Positions 431 through 23,222 of a DNA stretch of 35,595 nt are shown in pieces. Origin of the DNA: Terriglobia bacterium. GTDB taxonomy: Bacteria; Acidobacteriota; Terriglobia; UBA7540. The notes under the pieces are model-generated. The model saw nothing but the letters and a program-made list of their open reading frames with translations. It was not told the origin of the DNA and made no database searches. Where the stretch lies: positions 1 to 35,595 of the forward strand of contig JASHPE010000089.1 of the NCBI GenBank assembly GCA_030038235.1, written 5' to 3'. Every line of letters begins with the position of its first letter. The first letter of the stretch is position 1. Both the position numbers and the translations under genes were made by a program.

Positions 431-2593
431 CTAGAACTTCACCATAATATCAAAATCGACCAGGAACTCGCTCTTGACAAGGTTCGGGAACCAGACGCCG
501 CCCTGCCCGGCACAGGCTGTCTGTGCCGCAGTGAGGGCGGTCGCCCCGGATGGAGCACCGTTGTTGCATGCGTATTCGGTGGGATAGCCGTTACCGTTAA
601 CCACAACAGCGGGAGTGCCCGCATACGCCGGAGGCGTAATACCCCCGTGACCCGACCAATACGGTACATCGGCGTGGCGATAGTCCGGCTCGATGCGAAA
701 GGTAATGTACTGTTTCGGCATCCAGTCGAAAGTGAATGAGCTGTCCCAGGCCTTGAATGGGTCGCCGGGGTTTTCCGTAAAGTAAGGCGAATTGATGGCT
801 GCGGAGCCTGCGGTCTCACCGTTGATGGGCGGAAGCAGCACAAGATAACGTCCGGGATTGTTGATCGCGCCGCCCCCAAGCGTTATGGCAAACCGGTCCC
901 GATCGAACCAGAAGCGGTTGTAAAGCATGGCGCCAATAAAGCTCTGTTTGGGGCCGCCTGCGTGGTCGCCGGTGCAACTCACGCCGCCGCCGTATTCACA
1001 ACCGAGGTCGCCGGTGAAGGTAAACGCCATCTTGTCGAGGCCACTTACATCAGCTCGATCAAAGTATTTAACTTCAAGGCTGTTGTCCGTGTGGATGCGG
1101 GCGCGGCCGGGCGTGTATAGATCGTCGTGGCCCAGACCATATTCATTCGAAATGACGTTCATCCATGGAAAAGGAGTCCACTTAAGCTGTCCTCCCAGCC
1201 CAGGCCGGTTATTGGACGAACCGTACGACTGCCAGCCATTGATAAACCAGGGCTCAATCTTAAGGTGAGGAGTGGGGAAGATTTGGATGCGGACTCCCTG
1301 AAAGAACCACGGAGTATTCGAGGAAACATAGGAAGGTTGATAGGCCCAGTTATCAAAGTTGTAGTAGCTGAACAGGCCGATATAAGACATAAAGATTCCC
1401 GCGTCCACATTGACTCCATACAGCCAGTTGAAGTGGTACCCTCCGTATGCTTCTGAAAGGTAGCGATCGGCATCGGAAACGTCCCACTCGCCGTGAGTGT
1501 AACTGCCGTCGTTGCGAATGGTCGCCGTGGAATACGCCCCGAACTGGGTCATAAACCGGGCGCGGACATTATCCCAATGAAAGTCGCCGCCGATGCCGAG
1601 TTGTTCCAGCTGGACTTCTCCCGACCGAAAGAGTTCACTCGACCCTCCCATCGAGTGGTCCGTGGGATGTTGGTTATCCCAGGTGGCGGTGACGTCAGAG
1701 CGGATTTCCGGGGTAAAGAATTTCGTGTCCCAATAGATGTCTTTGGTGCGGGGATTACCGTTGAGCCATGTCCAATCGGCGTCCGAAAAGGGCTCGATTT
1801 TCGCCGGCTTCTGGGCGTCCTGCGCCGGCGCCAACCATCCGGTGGCGACCGCCGGGGCTGGGTCAGGCGGTTTGGCAGAAGGAGCGCTGGTGGCGGGCGG
1901 GTTGGCGTCGGGCGCCGAGGCCTCCGGAGAAATGAACGCCAGTTGGTCGGGTTTCGTGGACGGCAAAACTGCGGGCGTCTGCGAAGAGGCCAGTGGAGCC
2001 GCAGTGGCTGTGGCAGCCGGGCTGCTTCCCGCTTGCCGGGCTTCCATCAAGGCCAAACGCTGCTCCAAGCGGTCGATGCGATCGAGCAGTTGCTTTTCCC
2101 GCTCGGTCAGCGGCGCCTCGGCACTTGACGCGGATGCGGTCAACGCGCCTGCCGCGCCCGAAGTGCCTGCCGAGGCGAGGGTAATATCGTCACGAAGACT
2201 CACGCCTGCTTTCACTTGCACGAAGCTGGCCGCCGCCGTTGCAAACCCTTCCTTGCTTGCGGTCACCTGGTAGGGCCCCGGCCTCAGGTCTTGGGCTACA
2301 AACGTCCCATTGCCGCCGCTGAAGAGTGTGAGGTCGCCGTTTTCGTTCACACTGTGCAGTGTTACCTGAACTTTCCCAAGCGGCCCTCCGCTGGGATCTC
2401 GCGTAATCCCGTGAATCTCGCCGAGTGTTGGCCCGCCCGAGGCCGCGACAGCCCGCGACGGCTTCCCGGCCCGGTCCGCTGACCTTGTCGCGTTCCGATC
2501 CAGTGCCGCCGTCTGCGCGCCGCACTTCGGGTGTGAGCTTACACCCAACACCAGAATGACACTTGCAATGCCGCCCAACGATAACGTCTTCAT
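431..2593 (-). CDS. Outer-membrane beta-barrel porin with N-terminal carboxypeptidase-regulatory-like domain
   Basis: Predicted 720-residue outer-membrane protein. The ATG at 2593 is chosen over an in-frame ATG 33 bases upstream because it is followed directly by a signal peptide (MKTLSLGGIASVILVLG). Residues about 57-139 form a carboxypeptidase-regulatory/Cna-B-like beta-sandwich (GEIHGITRDPSGGPLGKVQV, then a DLRPGPYQV turn). A short coiled coil follows (about 162-187), then a Pro/Ala-rich linker. From about residue 268 to the end the protein is a close paralogue of the porin at 2962-4785, sharing blocks such as FTPEIR, GGDFHWDNVRARFMTQFG and KQYITFRIE. This matches the OmpL-like putative beta-barrel porin-2 type by pattern. 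The gene has its own upstream site of four TTTA direct repeats, matching the one before the kdp operon. K+ or general small-solute passage is inferred from context; selectivity cannot be read from the sequence. Confidence 0.8.
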   Translation of the reverse strand: MKTLSLGGIASVILVLGVSSHPKCGAQTAALDRNATRSADRAGKPSRAVAASGGPTLGEIHGITRDPSGGPLGKVQVTLHSVNENGDLTLFSGGNGTFVAQDLRPGPYQVTASKEGFATAAASFVQVKAGVSLRDDITLASAGTSGAAGALTASASSAEAPLTEREKQLLDRIDRLEQRLALMEARQAGSSPAATATAAPLASSQTPAVLPSTKPDQLAFISPEASAPDANPPATSAPSAKPPDPAPAVATGWLAPAQDAQKPAKIEPFSDADWTWLNGNPRTKDIYWDTKFFTPEIRSDVTATWDNQHPTDHSMGGSSELFRSGEVQLEQLGIGGDFHWDNVRARFMTQFGAYSTATIRNDGSYTHGEWDVSDADRYLSEAYGGYHFNWLYGVNVDAGIFMSYIGLFSYYNFDNWAYQPSYVSSNTPWFFQGVRIQIFPTPHLKIEPWFINGWQSYGSSNNRPGLGGQLKWTPFPWMNVISNEYGLGHDDLYTPGRARIHTDNSLEVKYFDRADVSGLDKMAFTFTGDLGCEYGGGVSCTGDHAGGPKQSFIGAMLYNRFWFDRDRFAITLGGGAINNPGRYLVLLPPINGETAGSAAINSPYFTENPGDPFKAWDSSFTFDWMPKQYITFRIEPDYRHADVPYWSGHGGITPPAYAGTPAVVVNGNGYPTEYACNNGAPSGATALTAAQTACAGQGGVWFPNLVKSEFLVDFDIMVKF

Positions 2594-2680
2594 GTCGCTC
2601 ACTTTCTGCCTGGAGAAGCGAAGCATTTTACGGACGTGACGCCGTACCTTCTAGTACTCACCATATTCAATACCAGAAGC

Positions 2681-2720
2681 CATAAACGACGAATAAACAC
2701 TCTGTAAATTATTTATAAAG
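2681..2720 (-). promoter_or_regulatory. Putative KdpE operator upstream of the distal porin
   Basis: Read on the minus strand, TTTA tetranucleotides occur at 2719-2716, 2708-2705, 2697-2694 and 2686-2683: four direct repeats with an exact 11-bp period, about one helical turn. The site ends about 90 bases before the porin ATG. The same four-repeat, 11-bp-period layout occurs before the kdp operon at 9685-9724, and 15 of 17 bases are identical across the last two repeats. OmpR/KdpE-family regulators bind tandem direct repeats, and the E. coli kdp site contains TTTATA and TTTACA elements 11 bp apart. No convincing -10 box was identified. The rest of the 2594-2961 intergenic stretch shows nothing recognisable. 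Confidence 0.65.
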
Positions 2721-2961
2721 ATGGCAGGCGAGCTACGGCAAAGCGTAGCCCCAATAATGAACTGGCTATCCGAGGCAGGACAGTGGGTAGTGTCCAATAG
2801 ATTTATCTTTTGACACCTATAAGCGGATTGATTAACTTGTCGTTGTCACGCTAGTGCGTTCGTAGGGCGCCAGCAGTGTCCTGAGCCATTGCATTATGGG
2901 CACACAAACTCGCAACGGCCAACATAGTTAAAGGCCTTATAGGGAAAGTTCGGCCATCAGC

Positions 2962-4785
2962 CTAAAATTTAACTAGAATGTCCATATCGATCAGAAACTC
3001 GTTCTTGCGAAGGTCCGGAAACCAGACGTTGGCCGGTCCACCGCAAGCAGTCTGCGCCGCTGAAAGGGACGTCGCCCCGGACGGAGCGCCGTTGGTGCAG
3101 GCGTATTCGGTGGGATAACCATTACCGTTAGTAACATCGCCGGGAGTGTCTCCATATGCCGGAGGTGTAATGCCCCCGGTGCCCGACCAGTAGGGCACAT
3201 CGGCGTGACGATAGTCCCCCTCAATGCGGAACGTGATGTATTGTTTGGGCATCCAGTCAAAAGTGAGCGAGGAGTCCCAGGCTTTGAATTTGTCGCCGGG
3301 GTTTTCCGTGAAATAGGGGCTATTGATGGCTGCGGATGGAGCAGTCATCCCATTGATGGGAGGAAGCAACACCAGATAGCGCCCGGGATTGTCGATACCG
3401 CCACCGCCGAGCGTCACACCGAACTGATCTTTGTCGAACCACCAGCGGTTATAGAGCATGGCGCCGACGAAACTCTGCTTGGGGCCGCCCTTGTGATCTC
3501 CGGTGCAGCTCACACCGCCGCCGTACTCACAACCAAGGTCGCCGGTAAAGGAGAATGCCATCTTGTCGAGGCCGCGGTTCTCGGGCCTGTCGTAGTACTT
3601 GATTTCGACGCTGTCGTCGGTGTGGATGCGAGCACGGCCCGGCGCATACAGATCATCGTGGCCCAGTCCGTAGTTGTTGGCAATAATGTTTATCCACGGG
3701 TATGGAGTCCATTTGATCTGCCCTCCTAGACCTGGACGGTTATTCGCTGAGCCGTACGACTGCCATCCGTTGATAAACCATGGCTCAATCTTCAGGTGCT
3801 CGGTGGGGAAGATCTGGATTCGCACGCCGTTGAAAAACCATGGCGTGTTCGAAGAAACATACGACGGCTGGTAGGCCCAGTTGTCGAAATTGTAGTAGCT
3901 GAAAAGGCCGATGTAAGACAGGAAGATTCCGGCGTCCACATTCACCCCATCGAGGACGTTAAAGTGGTATCCGCCGTAAGCTTCCGAAAGATAGCGGTAA
4001 GCCGTATCGAGATTCCACTCGCCGTTTGCGGGACTGGCGTCGTTCCGGGGCGTGGTCTCGGAATACATCCCAAACTGGGTCATGAACCGGGCCCGCACAT
4101 TGTCCCAGTGGAAGTCGCCGCCCACTCCAAATTGCTCCAACTGCACCTCGCCCTCCCGGAAGGTCTCGCTCGAACCACCCAGAGAGTGATCGCCTGGATG
4201 GTGATTCTGCCAGTTGTAGTTCAAATCGGCCCTGATTTCCGGAGTGAAGAATGGCGTGTCCCAGAAGATTTGCTTGGTCCGGGGATTGCCATTGAGCCAC
4301 GTCCAATCCCAATCTGAGAAAGGAGCAGGCTTTGCCGGCGCCGTCTGCGCGGTTTCAGCGGGCTGAGCCGGAGCGGCGGCGGTCTGGGTCGACGTCTGCA
4401 CCGGCGGCCCCGGAATCTGCTTCACGTCAGGAAGCGGAGTGGTGGCGGCCGGCGGCAGGGAAAGCGCCGCCGCTCGCAGAGCCGTGGTCGGCGTCAGCGC
4501 AGCGATAGTGACGTTCGCAGCCGGCGCCTCGGCGGCGGCGTTCGCCGGCGCGTTGCCCGACTGTTGTTGCGCCTTTATGCTCTTCAGTTCCGCCTGGAGT
4601 TGTTCGATCTGCTTTTGCATCGCATCGAGCCTTTTCAGAATCTCAGCGGATACTTGCCGATCGCTGGCCGGGGTTTGCTGGCCGGATGCCTGGCTCGTGG
4701 TTTGCGCCCCAGCCGCGCTCGGTGCGAGCGTCAGGATTAGCGTGAATAAGAGTGGTTTGCATCGACACGACACGAACTTAGACAT
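2962..4785 (-). CDS. Outer-membrane beta-barrel porin (kdp-linked)
   Basis: Predicted 607-residue outer-membrane porin, paralogous to the product of 431-2593. The ATG at 4785 has a strong AGGAGG nine bases upstream. A signal peptide (residues about 1-28, hydrophobic core LLFTLILTLAPSAAGA) is followed by a coiled coil (about 48-75, LDAMQKQIEQLQAELKSIKAQ) and a Pro/Ala/Thr-rich linker. From about residue 155 (PFSDWDWTWLNGNP) comes a barrel domain rich in alternating aromatic and glycine strands, ending in FLIDMDILVKF with a C-terminal Phe typical of barrel proteins. The coiled coil may trimerise the porin or reach peptidoglycan. It lies only 73 bases after kdpC on the same strand with no operator of its own, so it is probably the last gene of the kdp transcript. 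A role in outer-membrane K+ entry is inferred. It lacks the extra N-terminal beta-sandwich of its paralogue. Confidence 0.82.
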   Translation of the reverse strand: MSKFVSCRCKPLLFTLILTLAPSAAGAQTTSQASGQQTPASDRQVSAEILKRLDAMQKQIEQLQAELKSIKAQQQSGNAPANAAAEAPAANVTIAALTPTTALRAAALSLPPAATTPLPDVKQIPGPPVQTSTQTAAAPAQPAETAQTAPAKPAPFSDWDWTWLNGNPRTKQIFWDTPFFTPEIRADLNYNWQNHHPGDHSLGGSSETFREGEVQLEQFGVGGDFHWDNVRARFMTQFGMYSETTPRNDASPANGEWNLDTAYRYLSEAYGGYHFNVLDGVNVDAGIFLSYIGLFSYYNFDNWAYQPSYVSSNTPWFFNGVRIQIFPTEHLKIEPWFINGWQSYGSANNRPGLGGQIKWTPYPWINIIANNYGLGHDDLYAPGRARIHTDDSVEIKYYDRPENRGLDKMAFSFTGDLGCEYGGGVSCTGDHKGGPKQSFVGAMLYNRWWFDKDQFGVTLGGGGIDNPGRYLVLLPPINGMTAPSAAINSPYFTENPGDKFKAWDSSLTFDWMPKQYITFRIEGDYRHADVPYWSGTGGITPPAYGDTPGDVTNGNGYPTEYACTNGAPSGATSLSAAQTACGGPANVWFPDLRKNEFLIDMDILVKF

Positions 4786-4858
4786 TGGGACTTACCTCCT
4801 TCGGGCGAGAGGCACAATCTGGCGCCCATGCCTTTTGGGGCTGGATTCACATGTTGAT

Positions 4859-5449
4859 TCAGTGGTTGGGTTCTTTTTGCGGAAACTTCTGATCCAGGTC
4901 CAGGTTTAACAGCAGTACATTCACGCGCGGCTCGCCGAGCAGGCCCAGAGTGCGTCCCGTCGTGTGGTCCGCGATGAGCCGCTGCAGATCTTGCAGACTG
5001 ACGCCCCGCGCTTTGGCGACACGCGGCGCCTGCGCCTCAGCCGAGGCTGGGCTGATGTCGGGATCGAGCCCGCTCGCGGACGCCGTCACCATGTCCGCCG
5101 GGATGGGACCGGTATAATCGGGGTTGTCCTTCCGGAATTGGTCGACCGAAGCCTTGACGCGATCGATCAGCTTCTGATTGGTGGGACCGTACTGTGAGCC
5201 ATTCGATTGCGATCCGTCATAGCCGTTGCCGGCTGCCGACGGCCGGGGCTGGAAGTACTGCGGCTTGGAGAAGCCCTGGCCGATCAGCGACGATCCCACT
5301 GTCTGACCATTCATTTCCAGCAGGCTGCCGTTGGCCTGATGGCGGAACAGAATCTGGCAAAGGCCGGTGACGATACCGGGATAGATCAGGCCGGTCAGGA
5401 TGGTGAACAGCAGCGTGATGCGCAATGCGGGTCCGAACTGTCTCCACAT
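4859..5449 (-). CDS. kdpC: Potassium-transporting ATPase subunit C
   Basis: KdpC (196 aa) is the single-span subunit that stabilises the KdpFABC K+ pump in the inner membrane. One N-terminal transmembrane helix (about residues 10-32, [20 protein letters not shown]) is followed by the periplasmic domain. Family motifs seen are [39 protein letters not shown] and [18 protein letters not shown]. Length and motif order are normal for the family. The start at 5449 lies 12 bases after the kdpB stop, consistent with translation from one message. A porin gene follows 73 bases downstream on the same strand. Confidence 0.97.
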
Positions 5450-5461
5450 GATGGGTCTCCA

Positions 5462-7579
5462 TTAAGCCAGTCGCAGCCAATGCACGATCTGATCGATCAG
5501 CCAGATTCCTGGGAAAGGCGCAACGATGCCGCCGATTCCGTAGATCAGCAGATTGCGCCGCAGCATGGCTTCCGCCGCCTGCGGGCGATATTTCACGCCG
5601 CGCAGCGCCAGCGGAACCAGCGCGATGATGATCAGCGCGTTGAAAATCACCGCCGAGAGCACCGCGCTCTGCGGCGTGTGCAGACGCATGATGTTCAGAT
5701 ATCCCAGGGCCGGGTACGTGGCCATAAACATAGCCGGAATGATGGCGAAGTACTTGGCCACATCGTTGGCGATGGAGAACGTGGTCAGGGCGCCGCGCGT
5801 AATCAGCAACTGCTTGCCGATGGCCACGATCTCAATGAGCTTGGTGGGATTGCTGTCCAGGTCCACCATGTTTCCGGCTTCCTTCGCCGCCATGGTGCCC
5901 GTGTTCATGGCCACGCCTACGTCCGCCTGGGCGAGCGCGGGCGCGTCATTGGTGCCGTCGCCGGTCATGGCAACCAGCCGCCCTTCGGTCTGTTCCCGCT
6001 TGATGTACTGCAGCTTCTGCTCAGGCGTCGCCTGAGCCAGAAAGTCGTCCACTCCGGCTTCCGACGCGATGGCGGCGGCGGTCAGCGGATTGTCGCCGGT
6101 GATCATCACCGAACGGATGCCCATGTTGCGTAATTGACCGAGCCGCTCCTTCATGCCGCCCTTGACCACGTCCTTGAGATGGATGGTGCCCAGCAGCCGG
6201 GGGCCGTCAGTGACAGCGAGGGGCGTTCCGCCGGAACGCGAGATGCGGTCGGACACGTCGGCGAACGTCGGCGGCACGGTTCCGCCGTTTTCGCGGACAA
6301 AGCGCATAATGGCTTCCGTCGCGCCTTTGCGAAGCTGCCGCCCGTCCAGATCCACGCCGCTCATGCGGGTGTATGCGGAGAAAGGAATGAAGTGAGCCTC
6401 CAGATCGTGCACCTCGCGGCCGCGGAGGTTGAACTGAGCCTTGGCCAGCACCACGATGGACCGTCCTTCGGGCGTTTCGTCGGCGAGACTGGAGAGTTGG
6501 GCGGCGTCCGCCAGTTCCGATGGCTCGACACCCTCCACGGGGATGAACTCCACAGCCTGGCGATTGCCGAGCGTGATGGTGCCGGTCTTGTCGAGCAGCA
6601 GTGTATTCACGTCGCCCGAGGCTTCCACGGCCTTGCCGCTCATGGCCAGCACATTGTGTTGCATCACGCGGTCCATGCCCGCGATGCCGATGGCGGAAAG
6701 CAGTCCGCCGATGGTGGTCGGGATGAGGCAAACGAGCAGGGATACCAGCACGGCTACTGACGGCACTTCGCCGGCGCCCGCCGATCTCACCGCGTACAGC
6801 GCGAACGGGTGCAGCGTCACCACCGCCAGCAAAAAGATCAGCGTCAGGCCGGCGATCAGAATGTTGAGCGCGATCTCGTTGGGCGTCTTCTGACGCTCGG
6901 CGCCTTCTACGAGAGCAATCATGCGATCGAGGAAGGTCTCGCCCGGGTTCGACGTGATGCGGATCTTGATCCAGTCCGAAAGGACCTTGGTACCACCCGT
7001 GACGGCGCTGCGATCGCCGCCCGACTCGCGGATGACCGGAGCGCTCTCGCCAGTGATGACCGACTCATCGACGGTGGCGATGCCCTCGGTCACTTCGCCG
7101 TCGCCGGGGATGTTGTCGCCGGCCTCGCAAAGCACAAGGTCGCCCGCCCGCAGCCGCGACGCCGGCAGCTCTTCGATTTTGCCGCCGCCATTGAGCAGCC
7201 TCTTGGCCAGCGTCTCGGTCTTGGCTTTGCGCAGCGTGTCAGCCTGCGCCTTGCCCCGGGCTTCCGCCATGGCCTCGGCGAAATTGGCAAAGAGCACCGT
7301 GAACCACAGCCAGAGCGTGATCTGCAGCGTAAAACCGATGGGATGGGCGCCCGTGATCGCGTCGCGCGTCACAAAGATGGTAGTTAGCGAGGCTCCGACC
7401 TCGACCACAAACATCACCGGATTGCCCATCAGGGTGACGGGATTCAGCTTCACGAACGATTCCCGAATCGCGCGCCGAAGGATGGGCGGGTCGAACAGCG
7501 GACGCGCCCGCACCAATTTCTTCGGCAGCAGATCGGTCTCGTCTTTGACAGCAGGCGGCGGCGCCACAACGGTTGCCAT
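5462..7579 (-). CDS. kdpB: Potassium-transporting P-type ATPase, catalytic subunit B
   Basis: KdpB (705 aa) hydrolyses ATP to drive high-affinity K+ uptake through KdpA. P-type ATPase signatures are complete. TGES lies at residues 177-180 in the actuator domain, the phosphorylated Asp is in DKTGT (D330), the nucleotide domain carries the KGA block, and [12 protein letters not shown] and [18 protein letters not shown] form the hinge. Hydrophobic pairs flank the cytoplasmic domains (about 55-105, 240-300, 605-690). The length is slightly longer than the roughly 680 aa of E. coli KdpB, mostly through N-terminal residues rich in Pro and charged side chains. The start lies four bases after the kdpA stop, giving tight coupling. 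The Ser in TGES, which is the inhibitory phosphorylation site described in E. coli KdpB, is conserved. Confidence 0.98.
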
Positions 7580-7583
7580 AAGT

Positions 7584-9401
7584 TCAACTCCAGATCGGCA
7601 ATGAGAACAATGAAGAGAACAGCTTGCCTTCGCGCATTAGGAAATGCTCTACGATGGGTCCGAGCGAAAGGGCCGGGAAATAGGTGAGGGCCCCGACGAT
7701 GACCACGGTTCCAATCAACAGCCCCACGAACAGGAATCCGTGCGTGGGCAAGGTGCCGCTGGTCACCGGAATCTTCTTTTTCGCCGCCAGGCTTCCCGCC
7801 ACTGCCAGCATCGGAATGATGAACAGAAAACGTCCGATCAGCGTGGCGAGACCCAGGCTGAGGTTGTACCAGGGTGTGTTACCGTTCAGCCCCGCGAAGG
7901 CGCTGCCGTTGTTCCCATTGGTGCTGGTGTACGCGTAGAGAATCTCAGTGAATCCGTGCGGTCCATCGTTGGTGATATTGGCGGCTGCAGGGCCCGGCGG
8001 ATTCCAATAGCCGTTCTTGGCGAAATTCGCCACCGAGCTGACTCCGGTGAAAACGAGGACGTTGGCGGCCATCAAAATCAGCGCCAGCATCGCCATCTTC
8101 ACCTCCTTCTGCTCGATTTTCTTGCCGATATACTCGGGCGTGCGTCCCACCATCAGCCCGGCGATGAAGACGGCCAGGACGGCGAACAGCAGCATCCCCT
8201 TGATGCCGGCGCCGACTCCGCCGAAGACTACCTCGCCGAGTTGGATGTTGAACAGCGGCACCAAGCCGCCGATAGGCGTGTAGCTGTCGTGCCAACTGTT
8301 GATGGCGCCGCAGCTCGCGTCCGTGGTCACCGTCGCAAAGAGCGTCGAGGCCGGGATGCCGAACCGCACTTCCTTGCCTTCCATATTGCCGCCCGGCTGC
8401 ATCGAGCTCGCTTTGGTCTCGAGCCCGAGCTTGGTCAGTTGCGGATTGCCTGCCTGCTCCGCCGGATAGCAGACCAAAACCCCGGCCAGAAACAAGACGC
8501 TCATAGCTCCGAACAGGGCCCAGCCCTGGCGCCGATCGGCCACCATCCTGCCGAACTGATAGGTGAGGCCGGCCGGAATCACAAAGATCATGAGCATCTC
8601 AACGAAGTTGGTCAGCGGAGTCGGGTTCTCAAAAGGATGGGACGAATTGGCGTTGAAGAATCCGCCGCCGTTGGTCCCCACCATCTTGATCGCTTCCTGC
8701 GACGCTACCGGACCCTGAGGAATGATCTGCGCTGCGCCTTCTACCGTCTTCACCGTGGTGTTGGCTTTGAAATTCTGGATCACGCCCTGCGAGCACAGGA
8801 AGAGCGCGCCGAGAAGCGACAGCGGCAGGAAAATGTAGAGCACCGACCGGGTAAGGTCGACCCAGAAATTGCCGATGCTGTTCACCTGCTTGCGCGCAAA
8901 GCCGCGAATCAGCGCCACGGACGCGGCCACACCCGCGGCTGCGGAAACGAAATTCTGCACCGTCAGCGCGGCCATCTGCACGAAATAGCTCAGGGTGGAT
9001 TCGCCGCTATAGTTCTGCCAATTGGTGTTGGTCACAAAGCTGGCGGCGGTGTTGAAGGCGAGGTCAGGCGTCATCGCGGTGGCGCCGGAAGGGGCATGAC
9101 TGCTGCCGAAATGATTGGGATTGATCGGCAGGAAGCCTTGTAACCGCTGGATGATATAGGCGAACAGCAGGCTCACGAGGCTGAATGCGATCAGCGAGGC
9201 TGCGTACTGCGTCCAGCGCTGCTCGGTCTCCTCGCGCACGCCGCACAGGCGATAGGTCAGTTTTTCCAGTGGGCGAATTAGTGGGTGCAGGAACGTGCGC
9301 TCGCCTTGGAAGAGCTTCGTCATGAAGACGCCCACCGGCTTGGTGAGGGCCAGAATCACAAGAAAGTAGACCGCGATGTTGAGAATCCCGATGGCAGTCA
9401 T
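7584..9401 (-). CDS. kdpA: Potassium-transporting ATPase subunit A
   Basis: KdpA (605 aa) is the K+-channel-like subunit of the KdpFABC pump, with four repeated membrane-pore-membrane units in the inner membrane. Selectivity-filter regions are visible: [13 protein letters not shown] (about 121-133), [20 protein letters not shown] (242-261), and later segments including [14 protein letters not shown]. The protein ends with the usual [20 protein letters not shown] block, followed by about 15 extra residues. Length is a little above the E. coli protein. The ATG at 9401 follows the kdpF stop by nine bases and the kdpB start follows its own stop by four, so the order F-A-B-C is intact and co-translated. 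Confidence 0.98.
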
Positions 9402-9410
9402 GACATCTCC

Positions 9411-9494
9411 TCAGAAACGCTCAGGGCGCAGCAGGGCGTACACCAGATAGCCGAACAGAAAAACCGCAGCAATGCCAGCAATTACGTAATCCAT
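9411..9494 (-). CDS. kdpF: KdpF small membrane subunit
   Basis: This ORF of 27 codons reads MDYVIAGIAAVFLFGY then LVYALLRPERF. KdpF is a single transmembrane peptide that stabilises the KdpFABC complex, and the C-terminal YxLLRPERF block is its hallmark. A good ribosome-binding site (AGGAGG) sits about ten bases before the ATG at 9494 and overlaps the TAG stop of the preceding 27-codon ORF. kdpA starts nine bases after its stop. Length, motif and position leave little doubt. Confidence 0.95.
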   Translation of the reverse strand: MDYVIAGIAAVFLFGYLVYALLRPERF

Positions 9495-9508
9495 CAGCGC
9501 AAAGCCTC

Positions 9509-9592
9509 CTACAAGCGATCGCAGGCCCTGGCGAATTCCCAGCAGCCCACGAAAAAGATCACTCCCACAAAGACGTAGAACAGATCAAGCAT
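9509..9592 (-). CDS. 27-residue membrane peptide, first ORF of the kdp transporter operon
   Basis: This short ORF begins MLDLFYVFVGVIFFVG and ends CWEFARACDRL. It is a single predicted transmembrane helix with a short charged tail (R-x-C-D-R-L). GGAGGAGAG lies four bases before its ATG, one of the best ribosome-binding sites in the window. Its TAG stop overlaps the kdpF ribosome-binding site and kdpF starts 14 bases later, so the two are probably co-translated. It is distinct from KdpF, which follows and has its own hallmark motif. I recall similar unnamed short ORFs ahead of kdpF or kdpA in other genomes, but cannot verify this here. It could be an extra subunit of, or regulator for, the Kdp pump. 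Confidence 0.7.
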   Translation of the reverse strand: MLDLFYVFVGVIFFVGCWEFARACDRL

Positions 9593-9684
9593 CTCTCCTC
9601 CCGCCCCGCATCACAATCGACTTTCAGAATCAACCGTAGCCCGCTGCAGCTCATCACGCTACAGTTCAAATCCTAGAACTGCGG

Positions 9685-9724
9685 TCATAAACGAGGCATA
9701 AACGTTCCCTAAATACTCTCTAAA
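9685..9724 (-). promoter_or_regulatory. Putative KdpE operator upstream of the kdp transporter operon
   Basis: On the minus strand TTTA occurs at 9724-9721, 9713-9710, 9702-9699 and 9691-9688: four direct repeats spaced exactly 11 bp apart. The site lies between the kdpE stop and the small membrane ORF, about 95 bases before its ATG. A twin array precedes the distal porin at nearly the same distance from the start codon. Tandem TTTAxx direct repeats at one helical turn fit a DNA-bound OmpR/KdpE-family dimer pair. No clear -10 element could be assigned downstream. Confidence 0.7.
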
Positions 9725-9758
9725 CGCCAAGACGCTCGCGCTCCCAGGTACACATCAC

Positions 9759-10466
9759 TTAACCGGCCTCGGGCAGGTGAAACCGGTAGCCGGCCCACGG
9801 TTCGGTCAGCAGATAGCGCGGCTTGGCGGGGTTGGGCTCGATTTTCTTGCGCAGCCGGTTGATGAATACGCGCAGATACTCATGCTCGTCTCCGTAATCC
9901 GGTCCCCAGACGGCCTGTAGAAGCTCCCGGTGGCTCAAGACTTTGTTGGGATGGCCAACCAGGAAGGAAAGCAGATCCATTTCCTTCGAGGTGAGGCGCA
10001 CCGGCGTGCCCCGGACCGTGACCTGGCGGGCCTCGAAGTCGATCTCGACATTGTCGAACGCCACCCGGCGCTGACCCGGCTCCGAGGAGAGCGGCGTGCG
10101 GCGCAGCGCGGCCCGAATCCGCGCCAGCAGCTCCGGAGTGCTGTAAGGCTTGGTGACGTAATCATCCGCTCCCGCGTCCAGTGCCTCCACCTTGTCGCGC
10201 TCCGCGCCCCGGATGGTCAGCATGATCACAGCCAGGTCCGGCCCCGGACGCGCCGCACGGATGGCGCGGCAGACTTCCAGGCCGTCCATGCCGGGCATGT
10301 TCATGTCGAGCAGCACCAGGTCGTAGTGCCCGGAGCGGAGCTTCTCAAGCGCCTGATCGCCGCTGCGCGCCTCATCCATCTCGTAGCCGTTGGCCACCAG
10401 TGTAGTCCTCATCACGCGGCGGATCTGAGGCTGATCGTCCACCACGAGGATGCGTCCGGCGCTCAC
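9759..10466 (-). CDS. kdpE: OmpR-family response regulator KdpE
   Basis: KdpE (235 aa) is the DNA-binding partner of the KdpD kinase and activates kdp transcription when K+ is limiting. The receiver domain (about 1-120) has the acidic pair D10/D11, the phosphorylated Asp at about 54 in LLDMNMPGMDG, and Lys106 in TKPY. The C-terminal winged helix (about 135-232) has the OmpR-type run ending in VFINRLRKKIE and a recognition helix in EHEYLRVFINRLRKK. Start is GTG at 10466, overlapping the kdpD stop by four bases (GTGA), so the pair is translationally coupled. It lies upstream of, and in the same direction as, the transporter genes, a different order from E. coli (kdpFABCDE). Confidence 0.95.
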   Translation of the reverse strand: MSAGRILVVDDQPQIRRVMRTTLVANGYEMDEARSGDQALEKLRSGHYDLVLLDMNMPGMDGLEVCRAIRAARPGPDLAVIMLTIRGAERDKVEALDAGADDYVTKPYSTPELLARIRAALRRTPLSSEPGQRRVAFDNVEIDFEARQVTVRGTPVRLTSKEMDLLSFLVGHPNKVLSHRELLQAVWGPDYGDEHEYLRVFINRLRKKIEPNPAKPRYLLTEPWAGYRFHLPEAG

Positions 10467-11962
10467 TTTGCGCTCCCTTCTTGAGCGTCAAACGGCAGCG
10501 AGAGACAGAAGTCCGACCCCTCGGACGACGTCTTGTCGAGCCACACTTCGCCGCCGTGCGCACGCGCGATCTGGCGCGCAATCGCCAGGCCCATGCCGGT
10601 TCCGTGCGTGCCCCCGGCATTCGAGCCGCGATAGAACTTGTCGAAGATCCGCGACTGCTCCGGCGCCGGCACGCCCGGGCCGTGGTCGGAGACGCAAATC
10701 ACCGCGCGTCCGTCGCGCCGTGCCGCTTGAATCGCGAGGGGCGAGCCGCGAGGCGAGTATCGCAAGGCATTGTCCAGAAGCTGGCGAACGGCCAGCACCG
10801 TCATGTCAGCGTCCACATTCACCTGGGGCAGGCCCAGCTCCACGTCCACTCTCACCTGGCGCCCTTCAACGGCGGATTCGACGGTATCGAGCGCGGCGGC
10901 CAGGATGGGAGCGAGAGGCTGGCGCGCTCGATCTAACTGGACGGCGCCGGCTTCGATGCGGGCCACGTTTACAGCCTCAGTGACCAGGCGGTTCAGGTGG
11001 TCGATATCCTCGTTGACGACCGCGATCAAGTCCTGCCGCGCCTGCGGTTCCGCGACCACGCCGGACAACAGCGCCGTGGTCGCGGCCTTCATCGAGGTCA
11101 GCGGCGTCTTGAACTCATGAGCGAGAGCGTCGAGCAGCGTCGATTTCAAATCCTGACTCTCCCGGGCTGCCTCCGCGCGATTGGCGGCTTCCTGCGCGCG
11201 CGCCTTCTCCAAGCCGATCGCGGCCAGGTTCGCCAGCGCCTGCAGCACGGTGTCGGAAGGCAGTTGGCCGCGCACCGCCAGCGCGCCGATCGGCTCGCCG
11301 CCCAGGCGGATCGACGTGACCACGGTGCCGGTGGCAGCGTCGTGAAAGAGCGTTCCCTTCAGGGCGGCCTCGCGCAATTGCTCGTCAATTTCCGGCACAT
11401 CCTCCGGCCCGGTGTGATAAATCGTCCCCGTGCTGCGCTCGAGGAAAGCAGCGGCGGAGAGGTTGAACACCTGTGCGACTTGCCGCGCGATCGCATGCGC
11501 GACGCCTTCCTCGGTGTTTGTCAGCAGCAGGGAGCGGCTGAGCGCGTAGAGCCTCTCCATGTCCTGCTGGCGTTCCAGGGCCTCGCGGGTGCGTTGTTTG
11601 GCGCGCGCACCGAGCTGACTGGCCAGGATCGACGTGGCCAGGAAGGCAAATAGCGCCGCCCAGTTCCGCGGGTCGGCTACCGTGAACGTGAGGAGCGGAG
11701 GCAGAAAGAAAAAATTGAAGCACAGGACGGCAGCAACCGACGCGGCCAGCGACTCCATCAGTCCCCAGGCGCTCGCCACGGCGAGGATCGCGACGAGATA
11801 GATGAAGCCGGCGGTGGTGGCATTCACCTTGAGCACGCGATAGGCGGCAAACGTGATCGCGGCGACGATGGCGAGCGAAGCCAGCACTTGCAGCCCGACG
11901 CGGATAAAGCTCAGGCCGGCAGGTTTGCGCAAACGTGCAGCGGTATCGGAGAAGCTTGTCAT
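10463..11962 (-). CDS. kdpD: KdpD-like sensor histidine kinase lacking the N-terminal KdpD/Usp region
   Basis: This is a membrane sensor kinase of 499 aa. Residues about 20-115 form the four-helix DUF4118 region, about 140-255 a GAF-like domain, and about 275-340 the HisKA domain with the phospho-acceptor His282 in ALAHEFKTPLTSM. The rest is the ATPase domain with N box (QLLDNALRYSPRG), G1 box (VSDHGPGVP), F box (IFDKFYRG) and G2 box (GTGMGLAIARQIARAHGG). E. coli KdpD is about 894 aa because it carries an N-terminal KdpD domain and a Usp domain implicated in K+ and cyclic-di-AMP sensing. Both are absent here and no ORF for them lies next door. It is paired with kdpE by a four-base overlap. 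The start ATG at 11962 precedes a soluble N-tail and the first membrane helix. Confidence 0.9.
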   Translation of the reverse strand: MTSFSDTAARLRKPAGLSFIRVGLQVLASLAIVAAITFAAYRVLKVNATTAGFIYLVAILAVASAWGLMESLAASVAAVLCFNFFFLPPLLTFTVADPRNWAALFAFLATSILASQLGARAKQRTREALERQQDMERLYALSRSLLLTNTEEGVAHAIARQVAQVFNLSAAAFLERSTGTIYHTGPEDVPEIDEQLREAALKGTLFHDAATGTVVTSIRLGGEPIGALAVRGQLPSDTVLQALANLAAIGLEKARAQEAANRAEAARESQDLKSTLLDALAHEFKTPLTSMKAATTALLSGVVAEPQARQDLIAVVNEDIDHLNRLVTEAVNVARIEAGAVQLDRARQPLAPILAAALDTVESAVEGRQVRVDVELGLPQVNVDADMTVLAVRQLLDNALRYSPRGSPLAIQAARRDGRAVICVSDHGPGVPAPEQSRIFDKFYRGSNAGGTHGTGMGLAIARQIARAHGGEVWLDKTSSEGSDFCLSLPFDAQEGSAK

Positions 11963-12031
11963 GGAACGAGGAAGACGGGGCGCGCCGGGGTCGGACCCGA
12001 TAATCGCACGCGATTCTTGGCTGCGCTGGTG

Positions 12032-12053
12032 GCACAGCCACTCCTGGCCGTGC
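12032..12053. repeat. Small inverted repeat between the epimerase gene and kdpD
   Basis: GCACAGCCA and TGGCCGTGC flank a four-base loop (one mismatch in nine pairs). It lies in the 140-base gap between two genes on the minus strand. There is no T-run, so it is not a standard terminator. It could slow read-through from the epimerase gene into kdpD, or be one of the dispersed repeats. Confidence 0.4.
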
Positions 12054-12102
12054 TTCCTTAGCCTGAGCTCACGATTATCATAACCCCGCCGCCCATGGAC
12101 TG

Positions 12103-18085: not shown

Positions 18086-20770
18086 ATGAGCGAGGCTGAG
18101 CTTCAGCAGGGGTACGCCGCCGATATCGAGACCCAGGAGTGGCTGGAGTCGCTCGATTACGTCCTATACAACGACGGCGGAACCGAGCGCGCCGGGCAGA
18201 TCCTGCAGCGCTTGCGCTTGCACGCCGCCGAAGCCGGCGTCACGCTGCCTTACCGCGCCACCACCCCTTACCTGAACACGATCCCCGCCGATCAGGAGCC
18301 GCCGTTTCCGGGCAGCCGCGAGATCGAGCGCCGCATCAAGAGCTTGATTCGCTGGAACGCGATGGCCATGGTGGTCCGCGCCAACCGCGAGGAGAGCGGG
18401 ATCGGCGGCCATATTTCGACCTATGCGTCTCAGGCCACGCTTTTTGAAGTCGCGTTCAATCATTTCCTGCGCGCCAAGGCTCCCGACCACGACGGCGACG
18501 TGGCTTATTTCCAGGGCCACGCCGCGCCGGGTGTTTATGCGCGCGCTTTTCTCGAAGGACGCCTGTCGCTGGAACGTATGCAGAATTTCCGCCGCGAGAC
18601 CCGTCCGGCCGGCGGGCTTTCGTCGTACCCCCACCCCTGGCTGATGCCCGACTTCTGGGAATATCCGACGGTTTCGATGGGTCTCGCTCCCATCATGGCC
18701 ATCTATCACGCGCGCTTCGTGCGCTATCTTCAGGACCGCAAGCTTAAGAACCGTTCTGATTCCAAGGTATGGGCGTTCCTCGGCGACGGCGAAATGGACG
18801 AGCCCGAGTCGCTGGGCGCAGTCTCGCTGGCGGCGCGTGAGAAGCTCGACAATCTCATCTTCGTGATCAGTTGCAACCTGCAGCGGCTGGACGGTCCGGT
18901 GCGCGGCAACGGGAACATCGTGCAGGAACTGGAAGGCGTGTTCCGCGGCGCGGGCTGGAATGTGATCAAGGTTCTGTGGGGGACGGACTGGGACCCGCTG
19001 CTGGCCAAGGACAGCGACGGTCTGCTGGCCGATCGAATGGGTCAGGTGGTCGACGGCGAACGGCAGAAGTTCAGCGTCTCCTCGGGCGCGTACGTCCGCC
19101 AGCACTTCTTCGGCACGCATCCGAAGCTGCTCGAGATGGTGAGGCATTATTCTGACGAGCAGCTTGCCAGGATGCGCCTTGGCGGACACGATCCGCAGAA
19201 GGTCTATGCGGCGTACAAGGCAGCGGTGGAGCACGCGGGCGCACCCACGGTGATCCTGGCGCGCACCACCAAGGGCTACGGTCTCGGCGAGGCGGGCGAA
19301 GGCAAGAACATCACGCACCAGCAGAAAAAGCTGAACGAGGCCGAGTTGCGCTCCTTCCGCAGCCGCTTCGGCGTGCCCATGTCTGACGAAGAAGTCGCGG
19401 GCGCGCCTTTCTACCGGCCGTCTGAGTCGAGCCCGGAAATCGAGTATCTCCGCGAGCGCCGCAAAATACTGGGAGGATACGTGCCGAGCCGCGCGGTGCG
19501 TGTGGAGCCTCTCGATCCTCCGGCGGAAACGCTCTTTGACGAGCTCTACAAGGGCACGGACAACCGCGAAGTGTCAACGACCATGGCGTTCGTGCGGCTG
19601 CTGAGCAAGCTTCTGCGCGATCCGATAATCGGCAAGCTGATCGTGCCCATTATTCCCGACGAGGCGCGCACCTTCGGCATGGAGTCGCTGTTCCGCGAGG
19701 TCGGCATCTACTCGCACGTCGGCCAGCTCTACGAGCCCGTGGATCGCGACACGCTGCTTTACTACAAGGAGGCCACCGAGGGCCAGATCCTCGAAGAAGG
19801 AATCACCGAAGCGGGCAGCATCTCCTCGTTCATCGCCGCCGGCACGGCCTACGCGACCCACGGCGTGAACACCATTCCGTTCTTCATCTTTTATTCGATG
19901 TTCGGGTTGCAGCGCGTCGGCGACCTGATCTGGGCAGCGGCGGACTCGCGGTGCCGCGGATTCCTGCTCGGCGGGACGGCGGGACGCACCACGCTGGCCG
20001 GCGAGGGCCTGCAGCATCAGGACGGGAACAGCCACGTGCTTGCCTATCCGGTGCCGAACCTGATGGCTTATGATCCGGCGTTCGCTTACGAGATCGCCGT
20101 CATCATTCGCGACGGCATCCGGCGCATGTATCACGACGGAGAGAGCATCTTCTACTACCTGACGCTGATGAACGAGCCGTATGCGCAGCCGCCCATGCCG
20201 AACGAACCCGGCGTTCAGGAGGGCATCCTGAAAGGGCTTTATCGCTTCCGCGCTTCCGCTCATCCCCGCGCCAAGCTGCGCGCGCAACTGTTTGGCAGCG
20301 GTTCGATTCTGAATGAGGCGCTCAAGGCGCAGGTTGTGCTCGATGAGAAATACAACGTGGGCGCGGACGTATGGAGTGTGACGAGTTACAAGCAACTGTA
20401 CCGCGAGGGCCATGATGCTGAGCGCTGGAACATGCTGAATCCGGCCGCGAAGCCTCGCGTGCCCTACGTGGCGTCATGCTTGGCGGACGCGCCGGGCGTT
20501 CTGGTGGCGGCCAGCGATTACATCAAGTCGCTGCCCGATTCGATTGCGCGCTGGTGCCCACGTCCGCTGGTGTCGCTGGGCACCGACGGGTTCGGCCGCA
20601 GCGACGGACGCGCCGCTCTGCGCAATTTCTTCGAGGTGGATTCGCGCTTCATTACGCTGGCCACGCTGGCGGCGCTCGCACGCGAAGGTAAGGTGCAGGC
20701 CCAGGTGGTGGAGCAGGCGATGAAAGATCTCGACATCAAGCCGGAGAAGCCGAACCCAGTCACTTCGTGA
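18086..20770 (+). CDS. aceE: Pyruvate dehydrogenase E1 component, homodimeric type
   Basis: An 894-residue thiamine-diphosphate enzyme that decarboxylates pyruvate and passes the acetyl group to the E2 lipoyl domain. The thiamine-binding motif GDGEMDEPES...ISCNLQRLDGPVRGN lies at about residues 232-273. The N-terminal active-site region HISTYASQATLFEVAFNHF is present, as is the second-half block MFGLQRVGDLIWAAADSRCRGF with GGTAGRTTLAGEGLQHQDG. Length matches E. coli AceE (about 887 aa). The ATG at 18086 follows a purine-rich AAGGAAGC. It opens the pyruvate dehydrogenase cluster, but aceF is separated from it by a hicAB module. In the 293-base upstream gap a TGCTATCAT sequence (17841-17849) could be an extended -10, but no -35 is evident. 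Confidence 0.97.
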   Translation: MSEAELQQGYAADIETQEWLESLDYVLYNDGGTERAGQILQRLRLHAAEAGVTLPYRATTPYLNTIPADQEPPFPGSREIERRIKSLIRWNAMAMVVRANREESGIGGHISTYASQATLFEVAFNHFLRAKAPDHDGDVAYFQGHAAPGVYARAFLEGRLSLERMQNFRRETRPAGGLSSYPHPWLMPDFWEYPTVSMGLAPIMAIYHARFVRYLQDRKLKNRSDSKVWAFLGDGEMDEPESLGAVSLAAREKLDNLIFVISCNLQRLDGPVRGNGNIVQELEGVFRGAGWNVIKVLWGTDWDPLLAKDSDGLLADRMGQVVDGERQKFSVSSGAYVRQHFFGTHPKLLEMVRHYSDEQLARMRLGGHDPQKVYAAYKAAVEHAGAPTVILARTTKGYGLGEAGEGKNITHQQKKLNEAELRSFRSRFGVPMSDEEVAGAPFYRPSESSPEIEYLRERRKILGGYVPSRAVRVEPLDPPAETLFDELYKGTDNREVSTTMAFVRLLSKLLRDPIIGKLIVPIIPDEARTFGMESLFREVGIYSHVGQLYEPVDRDTLLYYKEATEGQILEEGITEAGSISSFIAAGTAYATHGVNTIPFFIFYSMFGLQRVGDLIWAAADSRCRGFLLGGTAGRTTLAGEGLQHQDGNSHVLAYPVPNLMAYDPAFAYEIAVIIRDGIRRMYHDGESIFYYLTLMNEPYAQPPMPNEPGVQEGILKGLYRFRASAHPRAKLRAQLFGSGSILNEALKAQVVLDEKYNVGADVWSVTSYKQLYREGHDAERWNMLNPAAKPRVPYVASCLADAPGVLVAASDYIKSLPDSIARWCPRPLVSLGTDGFGRSDGRAALRNFFEVDSRFITLATLAALAREGKVQAQVVEQAMKDLDIKPEKPNPVTS

Positions 20771-20790
20771 TAGTGGCGAGTGGCTCCCAG

Positions 20791-20812
20791 TTAGTTGTCA
20801 GTTAGTTGTCAG
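20791..20812. repeat. Two-copy 11-bp tandem repeat
   Basis: TTAGTTGTCAG occurs twice in direct succession, just after aceE. TCAGTGGGCAG is also repeated nearby (20819-20829 and 20840-20850). Similar low-complexity words recur before aceF and between holB and tmk. They look like the simple-sequence filler frequent between acidobacterial genes. Confidence 0.6.
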
Positions 20813-20851
20813 AGGGGTCAGTGGGCAGCCTTCGGTTCTCAGTGGGCAGGA

Positions 20852-21047
20852 GTGAAGTTTCGAGACCCGATCAAAACGCTCGAAGCGGATGGGTGGTGCT
20901 TGGCCAGGACGACCGGAAGCCATCGCCAATTCAAACACTCGGTGAAATCAGGGACTGTCACGGTTGCGGGCAAACCACGACGTACCGCCGGGCACTTTGA
21001 ATAGCATTCTGAAGCAGGCGGGACTGAGGGAAAGGCGAGAACCATGA
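20852..21047 (+). pseudogene. hicA: HicA-family toxin gene, frameshifted
   Basis: HicA toxins are small double-stranded-RNA-binding-fold mRNA interferases. A GTG at 20852 begins VKFRDPIKTLEADGWCLART, then TGSHRQFKHS and GTVTVAGKP, with the catalytic His in GSHRQFKH intact. After about 20970 the frame leads to an early TAG at 21002-21004. The next frame encodes the expected DVPPGTLNSILKQAGL ending and its TGA (21045-21047) overlaps the hicB ATG. A net one-base frame change therefore breaks the gene, for example loss of two or five bases around 20968-20976. The active-site half is present, but the C-terminal strand and helix are lost. A sequencing error cannot be excluded. Confidence 0.8.
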
Positions 21048-21250
21048 CGTATCTGGTGATCTTGGAACGCGGGGCCAACAGCTACGGCGCCTATGTACCA
21101 GACCTGCCGGGTTGTGCGGTCGTTGCGGATACACGCGAGGAGGCGCTCACCCTGATTCGTGAAGCAATACCGTTGCACCTGGAGAGCTTACGCGAAGAGG
21201 GCGCCCAGATTCCCGAGCCGGTTTCTACCACCGAACTCGTACAGGTCTGA
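21044..21250 (+). CDS. hicB: HicB-family antitoxin
   Basis: A 68-residue antitoxin of the HicB partial-RNase-H fold, which binds and neutralises HicA. It reads MTYLVILERGANSYGAYVPD, then LPGCAVVADTREEALTLIRE and IPLHLESLREEG. The YGAYVPDLPGCxVxADTxEEA pattern is the family signature. It lacks a C-terminal DNA-binding domain, as in the short HicB form. Its ATG overlaps the TGA that ends the restored hicA frame (ATGA), the normal arrangement of hicAB pairs. The gene itself is intact, so the cell may keep antitoxin without a working partner. Confidence 0.9.
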   Translation: MTYLVILERGANSYGAYVPDLPGCAVVADTREEALTLIREAIPLHLESLREEGAQIPEPVSTTELVQV

Positions 21251-21269
21251 GCTGGGGCGGAGTCTTGTT

Positions 21270-21406
21270 AGTGATTAGTGGCTAGTGGCTGGAAGGAGTC
21301 GCCACGTCATGTCGTGCATCACCTCCTTACGCGAGCGTAGGGGATGGGAGTGAGGAGAGTGGCTAGTGGTTAGCGGGCTGGCGACTCATTCCAGCCACTA
21401 ATCACT
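21270..21406. repeat. Inverted repeat between hicB and aceF
   Basis: AGTGATTAGTGGCT (21270-21283), followed by AGTGGCTGGA, is matched in inverse orientation by TCCAGCCACTAATCACT at 21390-21406. About 96 bases separate the arms and include further GGCTAGTGGTTAG-type words. The element fills the gap between the hicAB module and aceF. It could mark the edge of an insertion, or be a simple-sequence repeat that happens to be mirrored. Confidence 0.6.
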
Positions 21407-21427
21407 AGCTACTGTTCTTGGAGAGCC

Positions 21428-23149: not shown

Positions 23150-23222
23150 GCCCTTTCCCGGCTTTTTCCGGCAAGATGCTGGGCTAGTTATGTAACCTGT
23201 CCAGGAGGCAATCGACTCACCC

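Follow-up and report, generated by a model that had tools for sequence, protein, structure and literature searches.

The kdp gene cluster and its two repeat arrays

The window analysed here, the whole 35,595-nucleotide stretch of DNA from a Terriglobia bacterium, carries a kdp cluster whose members all lie on the minus strand, in the order kdpD, kdpE, array 1, a 27-aa peptide, kdpF, kdpA, kdpB, kdpC, a BBP2 porin, array 2 and a second BBP2 porin. The kdpD-type sensor kinase (10463..11962) is short and shows the Pfam domains DUF4118, HisKA and HATPase_c; a Pfam search at E 0.001 found no N-terminal KdpD or Usp domain in it, so sensing through that part of the protein should be absent. Its gene adjoins that of a kdpE-type response regulator of 235 aa (9759..10466), the presumed binder of the arrays, which is of the two-domain OmpR/PhoB type (Response_reg and Trans_reg_C) and is in turn adjoined by kdpFABC. 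The transporter genes are kdpF (9411..9494; PF09604, TIGR02115), kdpA (7584..9401), kdpB (5462..7579) and kdpC (4859..5449), and the nearest named records to the window KdpA are Acidobacteriota MAGs, some of them titled Terriglobia or Bryobacterales. A BBP2 beta-barrel porin of 607 aa (2962..4785) follows 73 bp after kdpC, with which it probably shares the kdp operon, and a second one of 731 aa with a CarboxypepD_reg domain (431..2626) lies behind array 2. Both porins stand above the Pfam gathering score for BBP2 (PF07642; 130.4 and 128.8 bits vs 26.2), and they are the two detectable BBP2 genes of their genome. The membrane peptide between array 1 and kdpF (9509..9592; MLDLFYVFVGVIFFVGCWEFARACDRL, ending ACDRL) gave no Pfam or NCBIfam match. 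Similar peptides precede kdpF in 55 of 103 kdp loci, counted before de-duplication with a loose C-terminal motif that missed at least one locus carrying such a peptide (L117), and they occur in acidobacterial, alphaproteobacterial and Thermogemmatispora records.

Array 1 (9688..9724, minus strand) precedes kdpF-kdpA-kdpB-kdpC-porin; the minus strand there reads gcgTTTAGAGAGTATTTAGGGAACGTTTATGCCTCGTTTATGACC. As the preliminary description had stated, the array holds four TTTA elements at exact 11-bp spacing, with starts at 9724, 9713, 9702 and 9691 (11-11-11), and it is non-coding, lying outside every listed ORF of at least 70 aa, 3' of the kdpE stop and 5' of kdpF/kdpA. That description left the strand unstated: the repeats are on the minus strand, where they agree in orientation with the direction of the genes, and a plus-strand reading gives TAAA. 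The four hexamers are TTTAGA, TTTAGG, TTTATG and TTTATG, and the full E. coli form TTTA(T/C)A is absent from them. The gap between kdpE and kdpF reads, on the minus strand, TTTAGAGAGTA-TTTAGGGAACG-TTTATGCCTCG-TTTATGACCGCAGTTC-TAGGAT, in which TAGGAT (9670..9675) is a -10-like hexamer that begins 16 nt downstream of the first base of the fourth TTTA. Array 2 (2683..2719, minus strand) repeats this layout before the 731-aa porin, with four TTTA half-sites in 11-bp steps (starts 2719, 2708, 2697 and 2686) and, at the same 16-nt offset, the weak -10 candidate TTGAAT (2665..2670), which matches TATAAT at only four of six positions and in this respect counts against the reading that we favour below. 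The second array, the -10-like hexamer, the retention of both in relatives, the porins and a placement relative to the promoter unlike that in E. coli had all been overlooked in the preliminary description.

Scanning the genome with the four-repeat model, a check that had been proposed for this site, returned two exact matches to TTTA-N7-TTTA-N7-TTTA-N7-TTTA in 6.67 Mb, both in the window, whereas the reversed pattern gave none in any of 41 genomes, the own genome included; the array is therefore not a product of chance. Six exact matches were found across the 41 genomes, five of them before kdp or BBP2 genes (two in G000, two in G001 and one in G032). The same-genus genome G001 has exactly two exact arrays, one before kdp and one before its own second BBP2 porin, and the G032 array precedes a porin-kdp operon. 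The sixth match (G016:C319) is built on a different unit, TTTACYGYCAT, is not reported by the profile described below, and has no kdp or BBP2 gene in sight within its 3-kb locus, which counts against our reading. In Bacillus thuringiensis a c-di-AMP riboswitch is reported to precede a kdp operon (PMC6488665); in the window, Rfam gave no match at the gathering threshold and hence no known riboswitch, and a tRNA scan found no tRNA.

Retention of the arrays in related genomes

KdpA was matched in 24 of the 41 genomes, the own genome included, and in none of the other 17. The 60 kdp loci considered were de-duplicated to 55 (63 regions), five being set aside with less than 300 bp upstream or as near-identical; 53 of the 55 are from Acidobacteriota, and the other two are MAGs labelled Melainabacteria/Cyanobacteria (L057 and L058, scoring 11 and 10). 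Upstream of kdpA in these 55 loci, TTTA-TTTA distances of 11 bp occurred 40 times, of 22 bp 25 times and of 33 bp 15 times, while every other distance from 4 to 45 bp occurred at most four times and antisense TAAA pairs were absent at 11, 22 and 33 bp. Of the 55 loci, 38 reached a four-repeat score of at least 12 of 16; none of the 55 did so when the antisense strand was scored, and among 1100 dinucleotide shuffles the rate was 2.0%. The remaining 17 loci fall below 12 and count against our reading; in five of these low scorers (L039, L040, L050, L054 and L100) a degenerate array stands at the right place, and in some others, such as L055, L074 and L130, no array is visible. Aligned, the arrays give TTTAYG as the consensus of the unit, its other positions being mixed. 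A lack of conservation in relatives had been set beforehand as a refutation of the preliminary description; the spacing and orientation of the repeats proved to be kept upstream of kdp, and the description was not refuted.

In two genomes from another family of the class (G032 and G040) and in four loci of named MAGs (L061, L065, L068 and L073), a porin stands between the array and kdpA, so that array, porin and kdp are found linked in different gene orders. One of these loci (L138, G040:C13) shows at least five half-sites in 11-bp steps before its porin-kdp operon, at about 7598-7660 of the flipped locus, with TAACGT placed 16 nt after the fifth half-site.

A wider search was made with a profile, R1, built from 35 kdp-locus arrays and excluding the window's porin site. 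It was derived from 38 array sites, of which L047 (a near-duplicate), L049 (no T at the last -10 place) and L138 (a fifth repeat) were left out of the alignment. On the window R1 reports two matches, array 1 and array 2, and on the own genome, under stricter filters and at E up to 1, only these kdp and porin arrays, both at 29.8 bits. Applied to 121 class genomes at least 90% complete, at E up to 0.001, it gave 77 matches in 58 genomes; under the stricter filters the other 63 genomes had no match at E 0.001, which counts against our reading. The genes downstream of the 77 matches are kdp in 49 cases, BBP2 in 10, APC permeases in 4, a small gene at a contig end in 1 and others in 13. Three of the 49 kdp matches have a BBP2 gene first, or four if G045, a BBP2-first match tallied under kdp, is included. 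The 10 BBP2 matches correspond to nine distinct genes, two matches (G103:C248) sharing one porin, one of them from 2.3 kb away. Because R1 was trained on kdp loci, overlap with the training loci was checked: of the 75 matches outside the window, 57 come from loci that contributed no training sequence, and 44 of those precede kdp (30), BBP2 (9), APC (4) or the small gene (1).

The 13 matches that do not precede kdp, BBP2 or APC genes count against our reading as well. They comprise two before Ser/Thr kinases, one before a HlyD-type gene beside a porin, four without a clear gene, one LGT and one SecD gene, each at a distance of over 800 nt, one that follows a BBP2 gene close to a contig end, one aimed across kdpE to kdpD as the divergent partner of a porin array, and two further divergent partners. 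One array match at a Ser/Thr kinase scores 33.1 bits, above the window's own arrays. Two genomes of family f5 have an array directly upstream of a Ser/Thr protein kinase gene (L202:2589-3623 and L211:2078-3049). Back-to-back arrays on opposite strands were seen at three places (L199, G083:C11:153613-153833; L205, G063:C37:1548-1678; L221, G083:C8:277438-277560), the paired arrays standing 14 to about 110 bp apart, as though divergent promoters had a common control region.

Four genomes that carry arrays or weak matches to R1 gave no KdpA match (G027, G017, G018 and G034; G018 is 80% complete, the others 94-100%). The G027 array (E 5.7e-10) follows a kdpE-type gene and is itself followed by the gene for a Pfam AA_permease_2 protein. 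At the G018 array (E 6.2e-6) a small gene stands between array and permease, and G034 shares this order, with a weak match (E 0.12). In G017 a weak match (E 0.007) is flanked by kdpE and the permease, and a strong one (E 1.5e-7) follows the permease and precedes the small gene. APC-family permeases (AA_permease_2) were found under an array at L170, L171, L172, L181, L195, L219 and L242, mostly beside kdpE-type genes; they are up to about 750 aa long, extending C-terminally past the permease domain, and are candidate K+ importers. An assignment of the permease as KimA-like was considered and stayed unconfirmed, as searches of solved structures found no relative. In many relatives the small gene, about 150-190 aa long, comes directly after the array, whether kdp or the APC permease follows it (L117:1240-1710, L118:9071-9589, L181:4942-5412 and others); it was not found in the window and is present in the same-genus genome. 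Its by-eye name, USP, was dropped, with no significant Pfam or solved-structure match and TTHA0350 as the best chain at E 0.74.

Promoter geometry and comparison with known systems

The position of the -10-like hexamer was assessed in the 38 loci picked by TTTA alone. Counted from where the fourth TTTA starts, TAnnnT begins at an offset of exactly 16 nt in 19 of these loci, against zero to two at other offsets from 4 to 44, and the mean match to TATAAT at the 16-nt offset is 3.58 of 6, against 0.71-2.32 elsewhere. The final T of the hexamer is present in all 35 aligned sequences and in two of the three sites omitted from the alignment, L049 being the one without it. A sigma70 consensus scan of positions 2500-12100 found no promoter with a -35 element at either array, a result that we read as an absent -35 and not as an absent promoter. 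A fixed -10 without a -35 would fit an activator-dependent promoter, with a bound protein replacing the -35. The claim of the preliminary description that the transporter genes have their own start draws support from the -10-like hexamer at its fixed 16-nt offset.

Repeats at 11-bp steps that take the place of a -35 have a precedent in the pho box, since in PhoB-activated promoters direct repeats at this step replace the -35 just before the -10. The window arrays share this architecture with the pho box and differ from it in core and target genes, the pho box combining TGTCA with phosphate genes, whereas the arrays combine TTTA with K+ genes.

The E. coli site kdpFABC-BS and array 1 both consist of direct repeats with a TTTA core at 11-bp spacing, which stand upstream of kdpF and read in the direction of the transporter genes. 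The preliminary description had cited E. coli TTTATA and TTTACA elements 11 bp apart, and this is what we found in E. coli kdp DNA; the available text of PMC3264566 gives the same half-sites, separated by 5 bp, within a 23-bp footprint at -72 to -50. The E. coli site, however, has two half-sites where the window arrays have four contiguous ones, and it stands at -72 to -50, whereas the last half-site of the window array starts 16 nt before the -10. The sixth base of the half-site is mostly G in the acidobacterial arrays and A in E. coli, and the window differs further in having a second copy before an outer-membrane porin and in having kdpDE precede the transporter genes.

Promoters from other phyla show a partly shared layout. 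In 41 non-acidobacterial kdp loci, most of them with alphaproteobacterial record titles, TTTA pairs occur at 11 bp (5), 33 bp (6) and 44 bp (6) and at most once at any other distance, so that pairs at 11 bp and further in-phase TTTA copies at 33 and 44 bp are common ground with the arrays. The element TCTCGAA stands upstream of kdpA in 31 of the 41 loci (antisense 2, coding control 4) and is followed by a TATG-like half-site in 15 of 41 under a strict pattern. These promoters thus present a pair, a gap and a proximal TCTCGAA element, with the middle half-sites missing, where the window has four in a row, and in many of the 41 rows a -10-like hexamer at the 16-nt offset is unclear. For Caulobacter, a second, still unidentified kdp promoter that might be regulated by KdpDE has been inferred, according to the available part of PMC8552747.

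Upstream of kdpF in E. coli K-12 (L139), a further repeat pair, TTTGCGAAATCTTTGCAG, lies between the known KdpE site and TACCCT, which we would read as a -10-like hexamer. This proximal pair, TTTGCGAAATC-TTTGCAG, repeats at 11 bp, and its second copy begins 16 nt ahead of TACCCT, as repeat 4 does ahead of the hexamer of the arrays. The pair occupies the place of acidobacterial repeats 3 and 4 and is spaced from the distal pair by one base more or less than the 11-bp phase would require. We put forward a second KdpE site in E. coli as a hypothesis only, because the footprint did not take in the proximal pair.

The candidate regulator and the reading of the arrays

The closest solved relative of the window regulator is E. 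coli KdpE (4kny; 169 bits), and alignment to this structure, whose chain numbering runs 2 ahead, shows that the E. coli residues Y191, R193, R200 and T215 are kept, so that the two proteins have DNA-contact residues in common. In the available text of PMC3264566, R193 is said to be KdpE-specific, and R193, R200 and T215 matter in E. coli KdpE. The KdpE equivalog model of NCBIfam (NF007820) gives the regulator 183.6 bits, under its cut-off of 325, which counts against our reading, and the PhoB model (TIGR02154) gives 196.6 bits, also under its cut-off of 296.2. With the NF007820 cut-off unreached, the name KdpE-type rests on synteny, the nearest structure and the contact residues. The preliminary description had called the site a KdpE operator. 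That a conserved regulatory site stands before kdpFABC is borne out, and KdpE is by far the likeliest binder in view of the adjacent gene, the kept recognition-helix residues and the E. coli half-sites, binding itself being predicted. Our preferred reading, to which we assign a probability of roughly 85%, is that each array would supply four KdpE half-sites in place of the -35 of an activator-dependent promoter, array 1 driving kdpFABC and the porin and array 2 driving the second porin.

Under K+ shortage the short KdpD would phosphorylate KdpE, and two KdpE-P dimers, arranged head to tail along a single face of the DNA, would then occupy all four TTTA half-sites. With the -10 hexamer placed at -12 to -7, these half-sites lie near -61, -50, -39 and -28. 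In this position KdpE-P would replace the missing -35 and hold RNA polymerase on the -10. Array 1 would start kdpF-A-B-C and the BBP2 porin behind them, array 2 would start the second BBP2 porin, and the regulon would join the inner-membrane K+ pump to outer-membrane channels through which K+ may pass. Cooperative binding of two KdpE dimers, as had been proposed for the site, is plausible. Against it, the available text of PMC3264566 reports that the isolated DNA-binding domain of E. coli KdpE bound its half-sites independently and without cooperativity, with Kd values of 350 and 200 nM, and this behaviour counts against our preferred reading together with the E. coli site position given there.

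Several other explanations bear on the same observations. Regulators of the OmpR/PhoB family often use direct repeats with an 11-bp step and porins are classic OmpR targets, and the arrays could accordingly be an operator of another regulator of this type, such as PhoB or an osmotic-stress homologue, that commands kdp and the porins while the adjacent KdpE is uninvolved or shares the site with other proteins. The slightly higher score of the window regulator with the PhoB model than with the KdpE model, both below cut-off, would be in keeping with this. So would the finding, which also counts against KdpE control, that a KdpE-like gene on the same strand, ending no more than 400 nt upstream, directly precedes just 30 of the 75 matches outside the window. 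Among the kdp matches, however, the proportion is 26 of 48, and in G027 and G018, as well as at the weak matches of G017 and G034, genomes in which KdpA was not found, the array still has a kdpE-type gene as its neighbour and a different transporter downstream. The TTTA core is moreover that of the KdpE half-site and not the TGTCA of PhoB (PMC3264566, available text), and we regard control by a different family member as improbable.

Two further explanations do without activation by KdpE at the transporter genes. The place of array 1 just behind kdpE, and an array at L174 that precedes a kdpE-type gene, could speak for repression or for a role in kdpDE autoregulation only, but the array aims at the transporter genes and has a -10 at fixed distance and no -35, which is the shape of an activated promoter; a repressive or purely autoregulatory role is thus very unlikely in our judgement. 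Least likely of all would be phased T-tracts, curved or UP-element-like, that act without a specific protein. The arrays are indeed T-rich, helically phased and just upstream of the -10, but a TTTAYG unit with a mixed remainder is not an A-tract, the repeat is strand-specific in the 55 loci, and it is attached to kdp, porin and APC genes, with two matches in the own genome.

KdpE is a textbook regulator, and its E. coli regulon has been described as one operon. The available text of PMC7657598 calls kdpFABC its sole target, a statement that counts against our preferred reading, and also gives 31 ChIP-exo peaks upstream of 37 genes. Conservation of the array in many relatives at a fixed distance from the transcription start signal suggests that one K+-starvation regulator may serve uptake across both membranes. 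If the array is a KdpE operator, soil bacteria of this class would couple a high-affinity K+ pump to outer-membrane channels, and how K+ crosses the outer membrane when supply is scarce would become testable. Our searches of the open-access literature turned up neither a four-repeat KdpE promoter nor an outer-membrane porin under KdpE control; the core of the KdpE half-site and the 11-bp spacing were already known, and the novelty lies in the number of copies, in their fixed place directly against the -10 and in porin and APC genes as targets.

A more far-reaching generalisation, which is tentative and which we think somewhat more likely to fail than to hold, would have a common grammar of KdpE promoters in which half-sites stand 16 + 11n nt before the -10, at least four in a row in Terriglobia and as a distal pair with a degenerate proximal pair in Proteobacteria, hence the possible unrecognised site in E. 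coli. The Terriglobia array would then have been carried to BBP2 porins and, where KdpA was not found, to an APC transporter, giving a two-membrane K+-starvation regulon with swappable transporters. The fixed geometry would provide a rule for reading KdpE targets from sequence, and it flags a concrete candidate element in the E. coli kdp promoter. Elsewhere in the window, positions 18086-24644 hold an ordinary pyruvate dehydrogenase E1-E2-E3 gene cluster.
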